DNA of 64,000 bases, from contig CAMOGQ010000002.1 of NCBI GenBank assembly GCA_946614165.1, positions 1 to 64,000 on the forward strand, written 5' to 3'. Origin of the DNA: an uncultured Lachnospiraceae bacterium (lineage in GTDB: Bacteria > Bacillota > Clostridia > Lachnospirales > Lachnospiraceae). The notes below the pieces were generated by a model. The model was not told the origin of the DNA. It was given only the letters and a program-made list of their open reading frames with translations, and ran no database searches. A program made the position numbers and the translations under genes. Below, piece by piece: positions 38,775-46,879 of the stretch (position 1 is the stretch's first letter; every line of letters begins with the position of its first letter).

Positions 38775-39673
38775 TTTCCAGATATTCCATCTTCTGCAGA
38801 GTCGTGGAGAGCGGCAACTTTACCAGAACGGCCCGGGAGCTGGGCTGCTCCCAGAGCGCGGTCAGCCAGGCTGTCCGGTCCCTGGAAAAGGAGCTGAACC
38901 TGGTCCTGATCGACAGGAGAAAGAAGGACCAGGTCCGTCTGACCGACGACGGCAGGCAGATTTATCCTTACATCAAAGCCATTGACGGCGCCCAGACGGC
39001 CCTGGACAGGAAAAAGAAAGAAATGGAGAGCCTGGAGGATTCGGTGATCCGGATCGGGACCTTCACCAGCGTCAGCCGCAACTTCCTTCCCGTCCTGTTA
39101 AAGACTTTTAAAGAAGAACACCCCGGCGTGGAATTTTTCCTGCGCCAGGGTGAATATACCAGTATTGAGAAATGGATCCGGGAGGGAAGCATAGACCTGG
39201 GCTTTCTCAACGCGGATCTGTGCCAGGGTCTTGAAACGGAGATCCTCTATACGGATCCCATGCGGGCGGTCCTGCCGCCGGGCCATGCCCTTTCGGGCAG
39301 GGATCAGGTGTCCATGCAGGAGCTGGCGGGAGAGCCCTTTATCCTTCTGGACGAGGGCGATTTTTCCCTGCCCCTGTCCACCTTTGTGTCCCTGGGCCTG
39401 ACGCCCAGGATCGAATACAGGGTCTATGACGACTATTCCATCCTGGCCATGGTGGAACAGGGCCTGGGGATCTCCATGATGTATGAAAGGGTCCTCAGGG
39501 GATTCGATGCCAGGGTCAGGGTGGTGCCCGTCCGGGAAAACCCGGAAAGGACCATTGCCCTGGGCTGGAGAAACGAAGAGACCATTCCCAGAGCCGCCCG
39601 TGAATTCGCCCTTTACGCGGTCCGCAGCATCAGGGCCATGGCAGGCACGCTTAAAGAAGATCCCGGGCTCTGA
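38771..39673 (+). CDS. LysR-family transcriptional regulator
   Basis: YSIFCRVVESGNFTRTARELGCSQSAVSQAVRSLEKELNLVLIDR; overlaps the add stop (ATGA). Confidence 0.92.
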   Translation: MISRYSIFCRVVESGNFTRTARELGCSQSAVSQAVRSLEKELNLVLIDRRKKDQVRLTDDGRQIYPYIKAIDGAQTALDRKKKEMESLEDSVIRIGTFTSVSRNFLPVLLKTFKEEHPGVEFFLRQGEYTSIEKWIREGSIDLGFLNADLCQGLETEILYTDPMRAVLPPGHALSGRDQVSMQELAGEPFILLDEGDFSLPLSTFVSLGLTPRIEYRVYDDYSILAMVEQGLGISMMYERVLRGFDARVRVVPVRENPERTIALGWRNEETIPRAAREFALYAVRSIRAMAGTLKEDPGL

Positions 39674-40187
39674 GAGTGCTCATGAGAGAATGCATGGGCC
39701 CGAAAAGGACCAGGCAGATGAAAAAGTTGCCTGCGCAGTGGATGATGTCGTAGGGAATCCCCGCCACCCACCAGGCAAACTGGACCCTGGGCCCCGAAAG
39801 GACCAGGGTGTAGAGAGAACATAAGAAACCGAAAAAAAGACCGAAAGCGCCGGACAGGATGGCATAGTAGAGTGCCCCTGTCCGGCCTTTCCTTCGGGAT
39901 AACATGACCAGCAGGATCAGGACGGGCCAGACATAGTAATAGGTCAGGGTCCAGGGGCCGAAACCGAAGTAGACGCACTCGAAGGTGGCAAAGGCCATGG
40001 CCGCCGCCAGGGTCTTCCAGCCCAGGAACAGGGTGAACAGGATAAAAAGAAAGGAGATCAGCTCTATGTTGGGCACAAGATCCAGGGCCCTTTTGGAGAT
40101 CTCCAGAAGGGCCACCAGGGCCCCGGTGACGGCTATGTCCCTGGCGCTCCAGCCTTTTCTGTTTTCTGATCCGGGGGCGGAAGACAT
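39651..40187 (-). CDS. ECF transporter S component
   Basis: Small polytopic protein ARDIAVTGALVALLEISKRALDLVPNIELISFLFILFTLFLG; second gene of the riboswitch-led unit. Confidence 0.75.
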   Translation of the reverse strand: MSSAPGSENRKGWSARDIAVTGALVALLEISKRALDLVPNIELISFLFILFTLFLGWKTLAAAMAFATFECVYFGFGPWTLTYYYVWPVLILLVMLSRRKGRTGALYYAILSGAFGLFFGFLCSLYTLVLSGPRVQFAWWVAGIPYDIIHCAGNFFICLVLFGPMHSLMSTLRARDLL

Positions 40188-40205
40188 GGGCAGTTCCTCT
40201 TTTCT

Positions 40206-40655
40206 TTACTGGGCGGCATCCGCTTCTTCGGATGCCTGCGCGATTTCATAGACCAGGGAGAAAGAATCCCCGTCCGCTACGGGCTGGGCATCGGCTCCGT
40301 ACATGCCGTATTCGCCGTTGACATAGATGGCCCAGTAGGACCCGTTCTCGTCGTAATTTGCCCCAAGGCCGTTGACGGATTCGATAAAGAGACCGTAGTC
40401 GGACTCGCTCCCTTCATAGGTAAAGTCTCCTGCGGCCTTCAGTTCGTCCATGAGGCCGGCCAGAAATTCGGCGTCGGTCTTTCCGCTGTAGGCCTTTTCG
40501 GTCCCCTGGTCGTCCACGACGGTCAGGCTGTAGGCCTTGGTGCCCTGCTGGGGAGCGGGCCGGTTGTTCAGATATACCACTGCGAAGAGGGCAGCGAGGA
40601 CCGCCAGAAGAACCACGGCTCCTATGAGCTTTCTGTTTCCTGTTTTCTTTTCCAT
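40206..40655 (-). CDS. DUF4430 (transcobalamin-like C-terminal domain) membrane-anchored protein
   Basis: N-terminal TM; FLAGLMDELKAAGDFTYEGSESDYGLFIESVNGLGANYDENGSYWAIYVNGEYGMYGADAQPVADGDSFSLVYE. Confidence 0.82.
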   Translation of the reverse strand: MEKKTGNRKLIGAVVLLAVLAALFAVVYLNNRPAPQQGTKAYSLTVVDDQGTEKAYSGKTDAEFLAGLMDELKAAGDFTYEGSESDYGLFIESVNGLGANYDENGSYWAIYVNGEYGMYGADAQPVADGDSFSLVYEIAQASEEADAAQ

Positions 40656-40682
40656 AAATACTCCTTTCTCTGCCGGAGGCAG

Positions 40683-40708
40683 AAAAAATGCCGGGCAGCC
40701 GCCCGGCA
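40683..40708 (-). terminator. Intrinsic terminator, probable riboswitch expression platform
   Basis: Minus strand tgccgggc-ggct-gcccggca followed by TTTTTT just upstream of the DUF4430 RBS. Confidence 0.8.
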
Positions 40709-40811
40709 AATGGTAAAAGACGCATCAAAACAAAGGCCCGGCATGGACCATCCATGCAGACTGCCTCTCTTTTAAAGCGTGACTATGCCAGTTACTCGTG
40801 GCGCCCCGCAG

Positions 40812-41008
40812 CCTGCAGGCAGGTCTCCTGGCTTACGGATCGCCGCTTTCCGCCGCCTTCCCGGTCTCCCAGTGACATAAGGCCCTGTTCTCTGAACAGA
40901 ACCGGCGGATCGCTCCCCGCTTACAGTGACGAGTTCGTACAGGATTTGCACCTGTTTCCCTTTTCACCGGACCCGGGATCGGATGTCCGATCTGTCCGGC
41001 ACCTGCAG
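40812..41008 (-). ncRNA. Cobalamin (B12) riboswitch
   Basis: Minus strand: GGTGCCGG...GGTGAAAAGGGAAACAGGTGCAAATCCTGTACG...CACTGTAAGCGGGGAG...AAGCCAGGAGACCTGCC, the conserved B12-box order. Confidence 0.93.
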
Positions 41009-41095
41009 CTTTTCATAAGTTACAAGGCTTATAGTAGCATTCCGGCTGACCGCGCGCAAGAGATACCTGCGAAGGGCCAGCCGGGAAAGGGAACT

Positions 41096-42319
41096 TTATT
41101 CTTCGTTATCTTCTGTCTTTTCTGCCGGAACTTCTTCCTTTCCGGAAGCTTCCTCTGCCAGGAGGGACCGGGCTTCTTCATCCGCCTTCTTCAGCGCATC
41201 TTCTTCCAACAGATCGTCCATGGTGATCAGCATCATGTCGTCCGCGGTGGGATTCTCCAGGGTGGAGACCCTGCGGGCCTGGTTGGTGATGATCTCCTCG
41301 AACATGTTGCGGACCTCACGGGCGTTGGCGAAGTTCTCAAGCTGCCTGAACTTCCTGGCGACGATCTGGGCCCGGATATGGGGCTTTGCCTCTTCGTCCA
41401 CCTTATAATCGTAGCGATTGCAGTTCATGTAGAAGATGGCTTCCAGCTCATCTATGCTGTAGTCCGGGAATTCGATATATTTGTTGAAGCGGGACTTGAG
41501 GCCGGGGTTGGAATTAATGAACTTCTCCATGGGCACGGTATAGCCGGCCACGATTACCACCAGGTCGTCCCGGTGGTCCTCCATGGCCTTCAGGATGGTA
41601 TCTACCGCCTCCTGTCCGAAGGTATCCCTGTCGTCCCCGGTCAGGGCATAGGCTTCGTCGATAAAGAGGACGCCGCCCATGGCTTCCTTGATCTTGTCCT
41701 GACATTTGAGGGCCGTCTGTCCCACATAGCCTGCCACCAGGCCGGACCGGTCCACCTCCACCAGCTGTCCCTTGGACAGGACGCCGATCTTTTTGTAGAG
41801 CTTGGCGATGATGCGGGCTACCGTGGTCTTGCCGGTACCGGGGTTGCCGGTAAATACCAGATGGAGAGAAACGGGAACGGACTTGAGGCCCTGGTCCTTT
41901 CTCAGCTTCTGGATCTTGACGAAGTCCATGAGTTCCTTGACATCGTGCTTGATGTCCTGCAGACCGATCAGCTCGTCCAGAGTCTCCATGGGATCGGGCT
42001 CCTCTGCCGCAGGGGCTTCCTGGACTTTCGGCGCGGCAGCTTCCTGGACGGGAGGCGTTTCCTCCTTCTTTTCGCCTTCTGCCTTTTCCTCTGTCTTCAG
42101 ACCCATGGAAACCAGCTCTTCCTCTGTCAGGAAGTCTTTTACGTCCTGGCCGAAAAGCCTTCTGGCTTCAGACAGGGCATCCTCTGCCTGCTTCAGGGAA
42201 GCCTCGGGACCGGAGGCATATCTTGCCTTCTTTGTTTCCTTTATTCCTTCTTTGACGCCGTCGATCACGGGACCGAAGAAATCATCGTATACGTTCTTCA
42301 GATATTTTTTATCAGCCAT
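41096..42319 (-). CDS. CbxX/CfqX (SpoVK-like) AAA ATPase
   Basis: LDELIGLQDIKHDVKELMDFV, LVFTGNPGTGKTTVARIIAKLYKKIGVLSKGQLVEVDRSGLVAGYVGQTALK, GGVLFIDEAYAL; acidic/Pro-rich linker in the N-terminal part. Confidence 0.92.
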   Translation of the reverse strand: MADKKYLKNVYDDFFGPVIDGVKEGIKETKKARYASGPEASLKQAEDALSEARRLFGQDVKDFLTEEELVSMGLKTEEKAEGEKKEETPPVQEAAAPKVQEAPAAEEPDPMETLDELIGLQDIKHDVKELMDFVKIQKLRKDQGLKSVPVSLHLVFTGNPGTGKTTVARIIAKLYKKIGVLSKGQLVEVDRSGLVAGYVGQTALKCQDKIKEAMGGVLFIDEAYALTGDDRDTFGQEAVDTILKAMEDHRDDLVVIVAGYTVPMEKFINSNPGLKSRFNKYIEFPDYSIDELEAIFYMNCNRYDYKVDEEAKPHIRAQIVARKFRQLENFANAREVRNMFEEIITNQARRVSTLENPTADDMMLITMDDLLEEDALKKADEEARSLLAEEASGKEEVPAEKTEDNEE

Positions 42320-43423: not shown

Positions 43424-46400
43424 ATGAAAAAGAAAAAATCATTCCGGTGGGTGCGCCCTGCGGCGCTTCTTCTGTCTTTCATACTTGCGGCAGGGGCCTT
43501 TCCGCTGGGGACCCGGGCGGCAAAGACCTATAATACCTCCTATGAAAGCCTGGTATATAAGTATGGCGATGCCTACAGGGACCGCTATCCCGATCTGCCC
43601 TATATCTCCTGGATGATGGACTTTGCGGATGACCAGATCCACGGCTACGGGACCTACCAGGAAAAGAACGGCGCAGGCAACGGATACGAGCTGGATGTGG
43701 TCTGCTCCACGCTGATCTACTACGGTCTCTACTGCGCAGGCTACAACGTACCGGAATATATTGATATTTCCAGGGATGATGACATAGCCGCCGCCAGGTC
43801 CAGGATCATCAACGTACGGGACAACTTCTGCGCGGAGACCATGTACAGCAGAAAGATCATGACCAAGGCAGGCTTCAGGGCCATCCCCATCACCGGGGCC
43901 ACGAAGATATCCGACCTGAGGGAAGGGGACATTATCTGGATCTTTACCAAAAAACTGAAGGAACAGGACGAGGATGACGAATCCGCATACAGGGAAATGA
44001 CCAACAAGTCAGGCATGTATTATCATGCCGAGGCCGTAGTGGAGGTAGGAGACGGATATTTTGTTACCGTCGGTGCCCACGGCAGAGCGGGCCGCAAGGA
44101 CAACAGGCCGGGAGACAATCCGGCTGTCGACAACGTGGATGAGGTCTGCCTGCAGAGATATACCAACTTACATTATGACAGCAGGCCCGATCTTCCTTCC
44201 TACAACCTGATCTACCGTCAGACGGAGTCCACTCCCGTGGGGGACCCCAGGCCCTACCAGCCCGGTCTGATCCAGAAGTCCAGGGATATCCGCCTGAAGA
44301 TCAGCGGCAAGGGGGACCTCTACTTTGACAACGAGGACGCGCTGATCACCGATACGGCCGTGATCGGAACGGACGTTACGGTCCATGCGGTCCCCGATGA
44401 AGGCTATACGCTCAGGTCTCTGACAGCCAGAAACAGTATCAGCGGTCAGGAGATCACTCTGGAGAACGGAGGCAGTTTCCGCATGCCGTCCATGAGGCCG
44501 GGCGGGGCCATTACCATCCGGGCCAGATTCGTAAAAAGCCAGGAAGAGGAGGAAGGGCCCAGCGGCTGGGTCCAGGACGAAAACGAGAAGTCCTATTATT
44601 ATGAAGGCGAGAAGCTGACGGGCTTCCAGACCATCAAGGGAAATACCTACTATTTCGACAAAGACGGGATCATGCAGACCGGCTGGCAGCACATAAACGG
44701 GAATACCTATCATTTCCGGAAAAACGGCACCATGAGGACCGGCTGGCAGACCCTGTCCCGCAGTCAGTATTATTTTGACGACCAGGGCCGCATGCAGAAG
44801 GGATTTGTGCATGCGGACGGCAGGACCTGGTACACCGACAGGAACGGCGTCATGGTGACCGGCTGGCAGACCATAGGAGGAAAGACCTACTATTTCAGCC
44901 AGCATGAGGGCAGGGTCGGAGAAATGCTGACCGGGATCCGCAGAGTCGGCAGCTGCTACTACTATTTCGGACCCGACGGGGTCAAAAGGACAGGCCTGCA
45001 GGTCACGGAGGACGGCACCTACTATCTGGATCCCAAGTCTTCTCCTTCCGGCAGGATGGTGACCGGGATCCGGGTCGTAGGAGGCAGGAAGTACTTTTTC
45101 GGAGATGACGGAAAGGCAGCTTCGGGCTGGGTCACGATTTCGGGAAAGACCTACTACGTAAATCCTGCCACCAGTGCCGCGGTGACCGGCTTTCAGACCA
45201 TCGACGGCCATTACTACTATTTTGACGCTGGCGGGGTCATGAAGACGGGCTTCCAGACCATCCAGAAAAAGAAATACTATCTGGGCAGCGACGGGGCAGC
45301 CCTGACCGGCTGGCAGACCATAGGAGGAAAGACCTATTATCTGAACGAGAAGGGTCAGGCCAGGACAGGCCTTCAGACCATCGACGGCACCGGATACTAT
45401 TTTGACGGAAACGGGGTCATGAAGACCGGCGCTCAGACCATAGGAAAAAAGAGATATCTTTTTGACGAAAAGGGCAGGGCGTCCACCGGATTCCGGACAG
45501 TGGGCGGGAAAACATACTATGGAGACAGGAACGGCCAGATCCTGACCGGATGGCAGTCCATAGAGGGCCATTACTACTATTTTGACGCAGGCGGGGTCAT
45601 GAAGACGGGCGTCCAGACCATCCAGAAGAAGAAATACTATCTGGGCAGCGACGGGGCGGCCCTGACCGGTTTTCAGACCATAGGAGGTAAGACCTATTAT
45701 CTGAACGAGAAGGGCCAGGCCAGGACGGGCTTTCAGACCATCGACGGCAGGGGATACTTCTTTGACGCAGGCGGGGTCATGAAGACTGGCGTTCAGACTA
45801 TCAAAAAGAAGAAATACTTCTTTGGAGAGGACGGAGCGGCGGCCTTCGGCTGGCAGGAACTGTCCGGCAGAAAATACTACGTGGATGAAAAGGGACTGGC
45901 GGCGACAGGCGTAAGGACCATAGAAGGAAAAACCTACTGCTTCGACGGAAACGGGGTCATGAAGACAGGCGTTCAGACAATAAATAAGAAGAAATACTTC
46001 TTTGGAGAAGACGGCGCCTTAAGGACCGGCTGGCAGACCCTTTCCGGCAGGACCTGTTACGCTGACCAGAAGGGCATCGTCAGGACCGGCTGGCAGACCA
46101 TTGACGGAGCCAGGTACTTTTTTGACGGAAACGGCTATATGAAGACGGGCGTCCAGACCATTTCCAAAAAACAGTATTACTTTGCTTCTGACGGCAGGCT
46201 TGTCACCGGCTTTACAAAGGCCGACGGTAAGATCTTCTTTACCGATCAGAAAGGGGTCATCCAGAAGGGCAGAAGGACCATAGGCGGAAAGGTCTATTTC
46301 TTTGAAGGCTCAGGGGCCGCGTTTACGGGCGGCTTTAAGACCATCGACAAGAGGAGATATTATTTCGGCAGTGACGGAGCGGCCCTGACCGGCTGGCAGA

Positions 46401-46879
46401 CCCTGGGCGGAAAAACCTATTATTTTAACGCAGGCGGGCAGGCCGTCAGCGGCTTTGTCACCATTGAAGGGAAGCTCTACCGCTTCCTGTCCGACAATAG
46501 CCTGGATACGGCCGTGGGCCTCAGGACCATCGGCAGGAAGGTCTATTTCTTCGAGGAGGACCACAGCGCGGCCACCGGCTGGAAAGACCTGAACGGCCGG
46601 AAGACCCTTTTCGGCAAGGACGGGGCCCGCAGGAGCGGCTGGCAGACGGTGGACGGAAAGCGCTATTACCTGGACGGATCCGGAGCCGTAAGGACAGGTC
46701 TTGTGAGGGCCGGCAGATACCTTTACTTCTTTGATGAGGGCGGAGCCATGACGGTCAGTGCCTTTGTCGAGCATGGAGGAAGCACCTACTATTTCGGCAG
46801 GGACGGCAGGGCTTATACCGGCAGCAGGAAGATCGACGGAAAGACCTACAGGTTCGGCCCGGACGGGAAATTAAGATAA
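43424..46879 (+). CDS. Secreted cell-wall-binding-repeat protein with N-terminal NlpC/P60- or CHAP-like domain
   Basis: Signal peptide; ELDVVCSTLIYYGLYCAGYNVPEY ... YYHAEAVVEVGDGYFVTVGAHG (Cys/His candidate); then many ~20-aa TGWQTIxGKxYYFxxxG repeats. Confidence 0.88.
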   Translation: MKKKKSFRWVRPAALLLSFILAAGAFPLGTRAAKTYNTSYESLVYKYGDAYRDRYPDLPYISWMMDFADDQIHGYGTYQEKNGAGNGYELDVVCSTLIYYGLYCAGYNVPEYIDISRDDDIAAARSRIINVRDNFCAETMYSRKIMTKAGFRAIPITGATKISDLREGDIIWIFTKKLKEQDEDDESAYREMTNKSGMYYHAEAVVEVGDGYFVTVGAHGRAGRKDNRPGDNPAVDNVDEVCLQRYTNLHYDSRPDLPSYNLIYRQTESTPVGDPRPYQPGLIQKSRDIRLKISGKGDLYFDNEDALITDTAVIGTDVTVHAVPDEGYTLRSLTARNSISGQEITLENGGSFRMPSMRPGGAITIRARFVKSQEEEEGPSGWVQDENEKSYYYEGEKLTGFQTIKGNTYYFDKDGIMQTGWQHINGNTYHFRKNGTMRTGWQTLSRSQYYFDDQGRMQKGFVHADGRTWYTDRNGVMVTGWQTIGGKTYYFSQHEGRVGEMLTGIRRVGSCYYYFGPDGVKRTGLQVTEDGTYYLDPKSSPSGRMVTGIRVVGGRKYFFGDDGKAASGWVTISGKTYYVNPATSAAVTGFQTIDGHYYYFDAGGVMKTGFQTIQKKKYYLGSDGAALTGWQTIGGKTYYLNEKGQARTGLQTIDGTGYYFDGNGVMKTGAQTIGKKRYLFDEKGRASTGFRTVGGKTYYGDRNGQILTGWQSIEGHYYYFDAGGVMKTGVQTIQKKKYYLGSDGAALTGFQTIGGKTYYLNEKGQARTGFQTIDGRGYFFDAGGVMKTGVQTIKKKKYFFGEDGAAAFGWQELSGRKYYVDEKGLAATGVRTIEGKTYCFDGNGVMKTGVQTINKKKYFFGEDGALRTGWQTLSGRTCYADQKGIVRTGWQTIDGARYFFDGNGYMKTGVQTISKKQYYFASDGRLVTGFTKADGKIFFTDQKGVIQKGRRTIGGKVYFFEGSGAAFTGGFKTIDKRRYYFGSDGAALTGWQTLGGKTYYFNAGGQAVSGFVTIEGKLYRFLSDNSLDTAVGLRTIGRKVYFFEEDHSAATGWKDLNGRKTLFGKDGARRSGWQTVDGKRYYLDGSGAVRTGLVRAGRYLYFFDEGGAMTVSAFVEHGGSTYYFGRDGRAYTGSRKIDGKTYRFGPDGKLR
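44595..46870 (+). repeat. Tandem cell-wall/glucan-binding-type repeats (~20 aa; 180-nt higher-order period in part)
   Basis: GxxTGWQTIxGKTYYF repeats; 'GGGTCAT' + 'GAAGAC' recurs at 45240, 45420, 45600, 45780, 45960, with a variant at 46140. Confidence 0.9.

Follow-up and report, generated by a model that had tools for sequence, protein, structure and literature searches.

A short minus-strand locus in the 64,000-nt window (the whole stretch of DNA analysed here) is in all likelihood an operon of the CbrS-CbrT type that takes up corrinoids under repression by B12, and it very probably constitutes the B12 uptake system of its host, a gut Lachnospiraceae bacterium. The assignment draws on a cobalamin riboswitch, a terminator, the homologies of both encoded proteins, the conserved pairing of their genes and the absence of BtuC, CbiC and CobS from the host assembly. 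From these we infer that B12 would repress the operon, that the DUF4430 protein would bind corrinoid and hand it over to the S-component, and that the S-component would use a shared ECF module. The features are listed in Table 1.

Table 1. Coordinates of the window locus and of the riboswitch-headed toroid operons compared with it
Feature	Location	Strand	Evidence
Cobalamin riboswitch aptamer RF00174, full length	41021-40801	-	cmscan 108.5 bits, E 3e-26, model 1-189/189
Intrinsic terminator hairpin + TTTTTT, predicted riboswitch expression platform	40708-40689	-	pattern scan, fold
DUF4430 gene, 149 aa, N-terminally TM-anchored	40655-40206	-	PF14478, AF2, Foldseek, PDB homology
CbrT-family ECF S-component gene (by homology), 178 aa, polytopic	40187-39651	-	6FNP_A homology, conserved motifs
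Riboswitch-headed toroid operon	L099:4445-15159		
Riboswitch-headed toroid operon	L100:2242-10952		
Riboswitch-headed toroid operon	L101:4973-14030		
Riboswitch-headed toroid operon	L102:5298-15453		
Riboswitch-headed toroid operon	L111:1564-13952		
Riboswitch-headed toroid operon	L032:6585-13411		

The original prediction had placed a B12 riboswitch on the minus strand, and Rfam returned RF00174 over the whole 189-position model against a gathering threshold of 31.5 bits. Nothing else in the window matched Rfam, and the genome as a whole yielded no second cobalamin riboswitch. The predicted elements are present within the span first given (39651-41010), but the 5' end of that span clips about 11 nt of the aptamer, which begins at 41021. 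A terminator ahead of the DUF4430 ribosome-binding site had also been predicted, and a pattern scan located it as the hairpin and T run TGCCGGGCGGCTGCCCGGCA-TTTTTT, with an 8-pair stem containing 7 GC pairs and a free energy of -17.4 kcal/mol when the hairpin was folded alone. It lies 34 nt upstream of the DUF4430 ATG, which is preceded by the ribosome-binding site AGAAAGGAG. In two close sister loci, L116 and L117, a terminator stands at the equivalent position, its stem or loop differing in sequence. No promoter emerged from a simple scan for sigma-70 elements. Since riboswitch and terminator both precede the genes, the leader is built like an OFF switch that works by transcription termination, and by analogy with the riboswitch family B12 is expected to repress the operon through the leader RNA. 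High intracellular cobalamin would bind this RNA, the terminator would form and transcription would end before both genes; scarce B12 would permit read-through, and the DUF4430 protein and the S-component would be made.

The S gene follows the DUF4430 gene by 18 nt. Riboswitch and pair are flanked by genes for an AAA ATPase and a LysR regulator, with no dedicated EcfT and duplicated ATPase beside them. The ATPase gene immediately precedes the riboswitch (41096-42319, minus strand); its product is SpoVK/CbbX-like and scores under the curated cut-offs of named NCBIfam families. Elsewhere in the window, 43424-46879 on the plus strand encodes an 1151-aa protein with a signal-like start that consists mostly of cell-wall-binding-like GW/YYF repeats.

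The S protein alone gave no Pfam match. A phmmer search against the PDB returned CbrT of Lactobacillus delbrueckii (6FNP_A, E 9e-11) as its sole significant relative, and a family profile of 25 relatives, in which the motifs PN, GFGxW and WWxxGIPxDxxHxxxN are conserved, reached 6FNP at E 1.3e-21 and no other chain up to E 10; the S protein is thus not close to other solved S-components. Judged by homology, the 178-aa protein is a CbrT-family (cobalamin/cobinamide) ECF S-component. Other S-component specificities were set aside because the PDB profile search returned CbrT only. The small polytopic ECF-type S protein of the original prediction, expected in a corrinoid rather than a different vitamin clade, is in agreement with these searches. 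In the tree, the window S-component groups with other DUF4430-paired S-components in a clade with good support, and CbrT is placed in the other half together with other paired and CbrTUV-type S-components, the branching order being poorly resolved. Within this S-component family, ATP-dependent transport of cobalamin and cobinamide is proven only for L. delbrueckii: its ECF-CbrT has been reconstituted as an ATP-dependent Cbl/Cbi importer for which hemin does not compete, and CbrT without its ECF module fails to support growth (PMC5997447).

The host genome is a 3.78 Mb MAG, 88% complete, in which absences are provisional. It carries one S gene of the CbrT-like family and one DUF4430 gene. An EcfA1-EcfA2-EcfT-truA cluster lies outside the operon (L112, G000:C108), a CbiMQO-like metal ECF system is encoded separately (L113), and the one protein with a B12-binding domain is a MetH-type methionine synthase (L114). 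Searches of this 88%-complete genome gave no match for a FecCD/BtuC permease (PF01032; 13 of 14 controls were positive), for CbiC or for CobS. We therefore set aside BtuFCD-type uptake on the lack of a FecCD permease, and de novo or late corrinoid synthesis on the lack of both CbiC and CobS, each as judged at this completeness. The proposal that the pair acts in place of BtuFCD fits the permease result, and the simplest reading is a B12-using, non-synthesising cell in which the pair is the only recognised B12 importer. A two-protein acquisition system had been proposed; both protein identities stand, but the energising ECF module is absent from the operon and encoded elsewhere.

The DUF4430 protein matched PF14478 with 49.3 bits (Pfam cut-off 23.8), and its AlphaFold model (pLDDT 91) consists of an N-terminal TM helix at residues 7-31 and a beta domain, as expected of the membrane-anchored DUF4430 protein predicted at the outset. 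It has no clear lipobox. In a single-sequence PDB search it matched 3U7Z of Ruminococcus gnavus (E 1.5e-9), and haptocorrin weakly (E 0.74). A profile of 17 bacterial relatives ranked haptocorrin (8.6e-5), intrinsic factor (0.009) and transcobalamin (0.018) all ahead of unrelated proteins. Foldseek against the PDB gave 19 matches at E<=1e-3, every one of them 3U7Z or a transcobalamin, haptocorrin or intrinsic-factor chain, and the next match stood at 0.013; the 19 include 5NP4, the isolated human transcobalamin (TC) beta domain with CNCbl. The suggested likeness to transcobalamin and intrinsic factor is borne out by the profile and Foldseek searches, and on sequence homology together with the match of the modelled fold we regard the protein as homologous to the beta domain of transcobalamin, haptocorrin and intrinsic factor. 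It is a candidate accessory corrinoid-capture protein that presumably binds corrinoid. Among its relatives, long lipoprotein linkers occur, and one DUF4430 partner (L062:5711-6496) has two tandem DUF4430 domains.

The pairing of the two genes is widely conserved. An S homologue was found in 70 of 200 genomes of the host's family, and nearly all standalone copies have a DUF4430 gene directly upstream, the reading frames usually overlapping or nearly so. Among 80 loci from other, named genomes, the majority Lachnospiraceae and the remainder including Erysipelotrichaceae, a DUF4430 gene adjoins the S gene in 77, and two of the three exceptions start at a contig edge. The pair was seen outside the family in 12 of 29 inspected loci, and also on a Subdoligranulum plasmid. 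On the Enterococcus faecium conjugative plasmid p114-2 (L229:4947-5838), an S-component and a DUF4430 gene are adjacent in reversed order.

Linkage to the riboswitch was assessed in two sets. In the first, a cobalamin riboswitch lay 300-1200 nt upstream, on the same strand, of 23 of 49 standalone S genes, and these genomes together carried 62 riboswitches, 23 of them 300-1200 nt upstream of an S gene; the chance of such placement is about 1e-71 under uniform placement, a figure that treats related genomes as independent, which they are not. In the second set, of about 49 loci, positions compared by hand put 18 of 27 riboswitches 480-850 nt upstream of an S gene. In roughly half of the relatives, among them a 57-60% identical sister (G049/L052/L119), a cobalamin riboswitch was not detected at the pair; permissive Rfam filters on 20 loci still detected none at those pairs, and Rfam found no other riboswitch family before the riboswitch-less relatives. 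Riboswitch control of the pair is common, not universal. A Clostridiales-1 RNA (RF01699, an sRNA) occurs near the pair at L016:2488-2641 (minus strand, directly upstream) and at L031:2618-2780 (plus strand), and is probably incidental.

In the corrinoid uptake operon that we favour, the membrane-anchored DUF4430 protein would bind corrinoid on the external side of the membrane in the manner of the transcobalamin beta domain. The CbrT-family S-component would take the corrinoid, possibly by direct hand-over, and dock on the shared EcfA1-A2-T, and ATP-driven toppling would import the corrinoid; the pair would stand in for BtuFCD and supply at least MetH. The role of the DUF4430 protein would be accessory at most, raising affinity, selectivity or local concentration and not being essential, because L. 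delbrueckii CbrT transports without an added accessory protein: CbrT and the ECF module suffice, whether in E. coli or in proteoliposomes (PMC5997447). That result also suits an alternative, unlikely in our estimate but deserving of weight, in which the S-component and the ECF module import B12 alone and the DUF4430 protein is a non-binding stabiliser, anchor or gate of the S-component; the often overlapping genes look translationally coupled, as expected for obligate partners. Against a non-binding role, the DUF4430 fold is specifically that of the beta domains of B12 carriers, the isolated TC beta domain binds both Cbl and Cbi and crystallises with both (PMC5599065), and the tandem DUF4430 domains of L062 and the long lipoprotein linkers suit an extracellular binder better.

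Corrinoid uptake by the pair might also be directed mainly at an incomplete corrinoid such as cobinamide, rather than a complete cobamide, and cobinamide is bound by both CbrT (PMC5997447) and the TC beta domain (PMC5599065). This preference appears improbable, since no CobS was detected in the 88%-complete MAG and the cell is probably unable to complete the lower ligand. Import of another tetrapyrrole or a metal (heme, cobalt or nickel) instead of a corrinoid could appeal to the naming of R. gnavus 3U7Z as a putative metal-binding protein, to the known ECF transporters for heme (PMC7299338) and Co/Ni and to the half of the relatives without a riboswitch, but it is highly improbable given that the S profile matches CbrT alone among PDB chains, that the CbiMQO-like metal ECF (L113) is already present separately and that riboswitches are strongly enriched at the pair.

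The operons of more distant S homologues include a dedicated EcfT and a duplicated ATPase, the latter fused in some cases to the S domain, a layout that matches CbrV-CbrU-CbrT (PMC6722938). All six Lachnospiraceae operons of this CbrTUV type that we examined are preceded by a cobalamin riboswitch (Table 1) and encode a large alpha/alpha-toroid surface protein and, as a separate product, a DUF4430-like protein, an assignment that Pfam confirmed in L099, L102 and L111; in L099, toroid and DUF4430 domains are found in one 1959-aa chain. Lactobacillus plasmids carry an equivalent set of toroid, DUF4430 and CbrT-type genes, with no Rfam riboswitch match. On the L. plantarum plasmid pMF1298-5, a 'fucose-binding lectin II' (L226:9653-10705) located between CbrT and the DUF4430 gene is a toroid homologue, and its annotation is probably wrong. 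In PDB comparisons the toroid model scores much the same against transcobalamin as against terpene cyclases or prenyltransferases, and Pfam Cobalamin_bind gave weak matches to two of seven toroids (best E 0.0036). We set aside a specifically transcobalamin-like toroid because of these similar PDB scores, which support the fold alone. By analogy, the toroid and DUF4430 set resembles the two domains of transcobalamin, and the riboswitch-headed toroid operons are possibly a bacterial transcobalamin-like system.

Capture of cobamides by Firmicutes (PMC8941943), and by Gram-positive gut bacteria, is poorly known, and the locus offers a small pair marked by a riboswitch, in a host that depends on B12 and apparently does not synthesise it. 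Structure, gene order and regulation together tie the uncharacterised DUF4430 to corrinoid capture. We tentatively suggest, with somewhat less than even confidence, that Firmicutes DUF4430 proteins are counterparts of the TC beta domain that capture corrinoids extracellularly for CbrT-type ECF transporters; the CbrTUV toroid would be the other half of a two-part or, as in L099, single-chain carrier, and in the window the part of the alpha domain, closing over the corrinoid, would fall to the S-component itself. If DUF4430 does bind B12, homologous domains serve the uptake of one vitamin in mammals and in gut bacteria, and where transcobalamin came from can be put to the test.

An analogue in operation is BtuG/BtuH of Bacteroidetes (PMC6143338, PMC8941943), where surface B12 capture precedes membrane transport; BtuG/BtuH act with outer-membrane transport, and the analogy is one of function, with no homology claimed. 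The beta domain of transcobalamin, intrinsic factor and haptocorrin shares with the window protein its fold, detectable sequence homology and an aligned conserved Trp of the YW motif. The window protein, by contrast, is membrane-anchored, its corrinoid binding is putative, and it lacks the alpha6-alpha6 barrel, consisting of a single TM helix and the beta domain, so we do not file it as a transcobalamin; in TC, the association of alpha and beta domains depends on Cbl (PMC5599065). The CbrTUV systems (CbrV-CbrU-CbrT; L. plantarum pMF1298-5) have a homologous S-component and a DUF4430 protein, but their operons contain their own EcfT, duplicated ATPase and alpha/alpha-toroid surface protein, none of which is present at the window locus.

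Among the closest systems is ECF-CbrT of L. delbrueckii (6FNP), with a homologous S-component of equal size, conserved motifs and the use of a shared ECF module, although the window S-component is distant in sequence and belongs to a separate well-supported clade. The two-gene neighbourhood is also alike, cbrS being likened by its place beside cbrT only; cbrS-cbrT clusters with nrdJ and pduO (gene order nrdJ-cbrS-cbrT-pduO; PMC5997447), whereas the window pair stands alone behind its cobalamin riboswitch. In L. rhamnosus, the DUF4430 protein LGG_02295 is encoded beside rtpR, the gene for a B12-dependent reductase, and the entry K8Q211 carries the name 'additional lipoprotein component of putative cobalamin ECF transporter' (PMC9963975); in our reading the two are the same protein. 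Its cobalamin-ECF assignment is by annotation only, and the window protein differs in having no clear lipobox and in lying behind a riboswitch. The literature searched contained no paper that treats DUF4430, transcobalamin and ECF transport together. The DUF4430/CbrT pairing itself is not new, having been anticipated by cbrS-cbrT and by the L. rhamnosus annotation, and the window locus is a further member.
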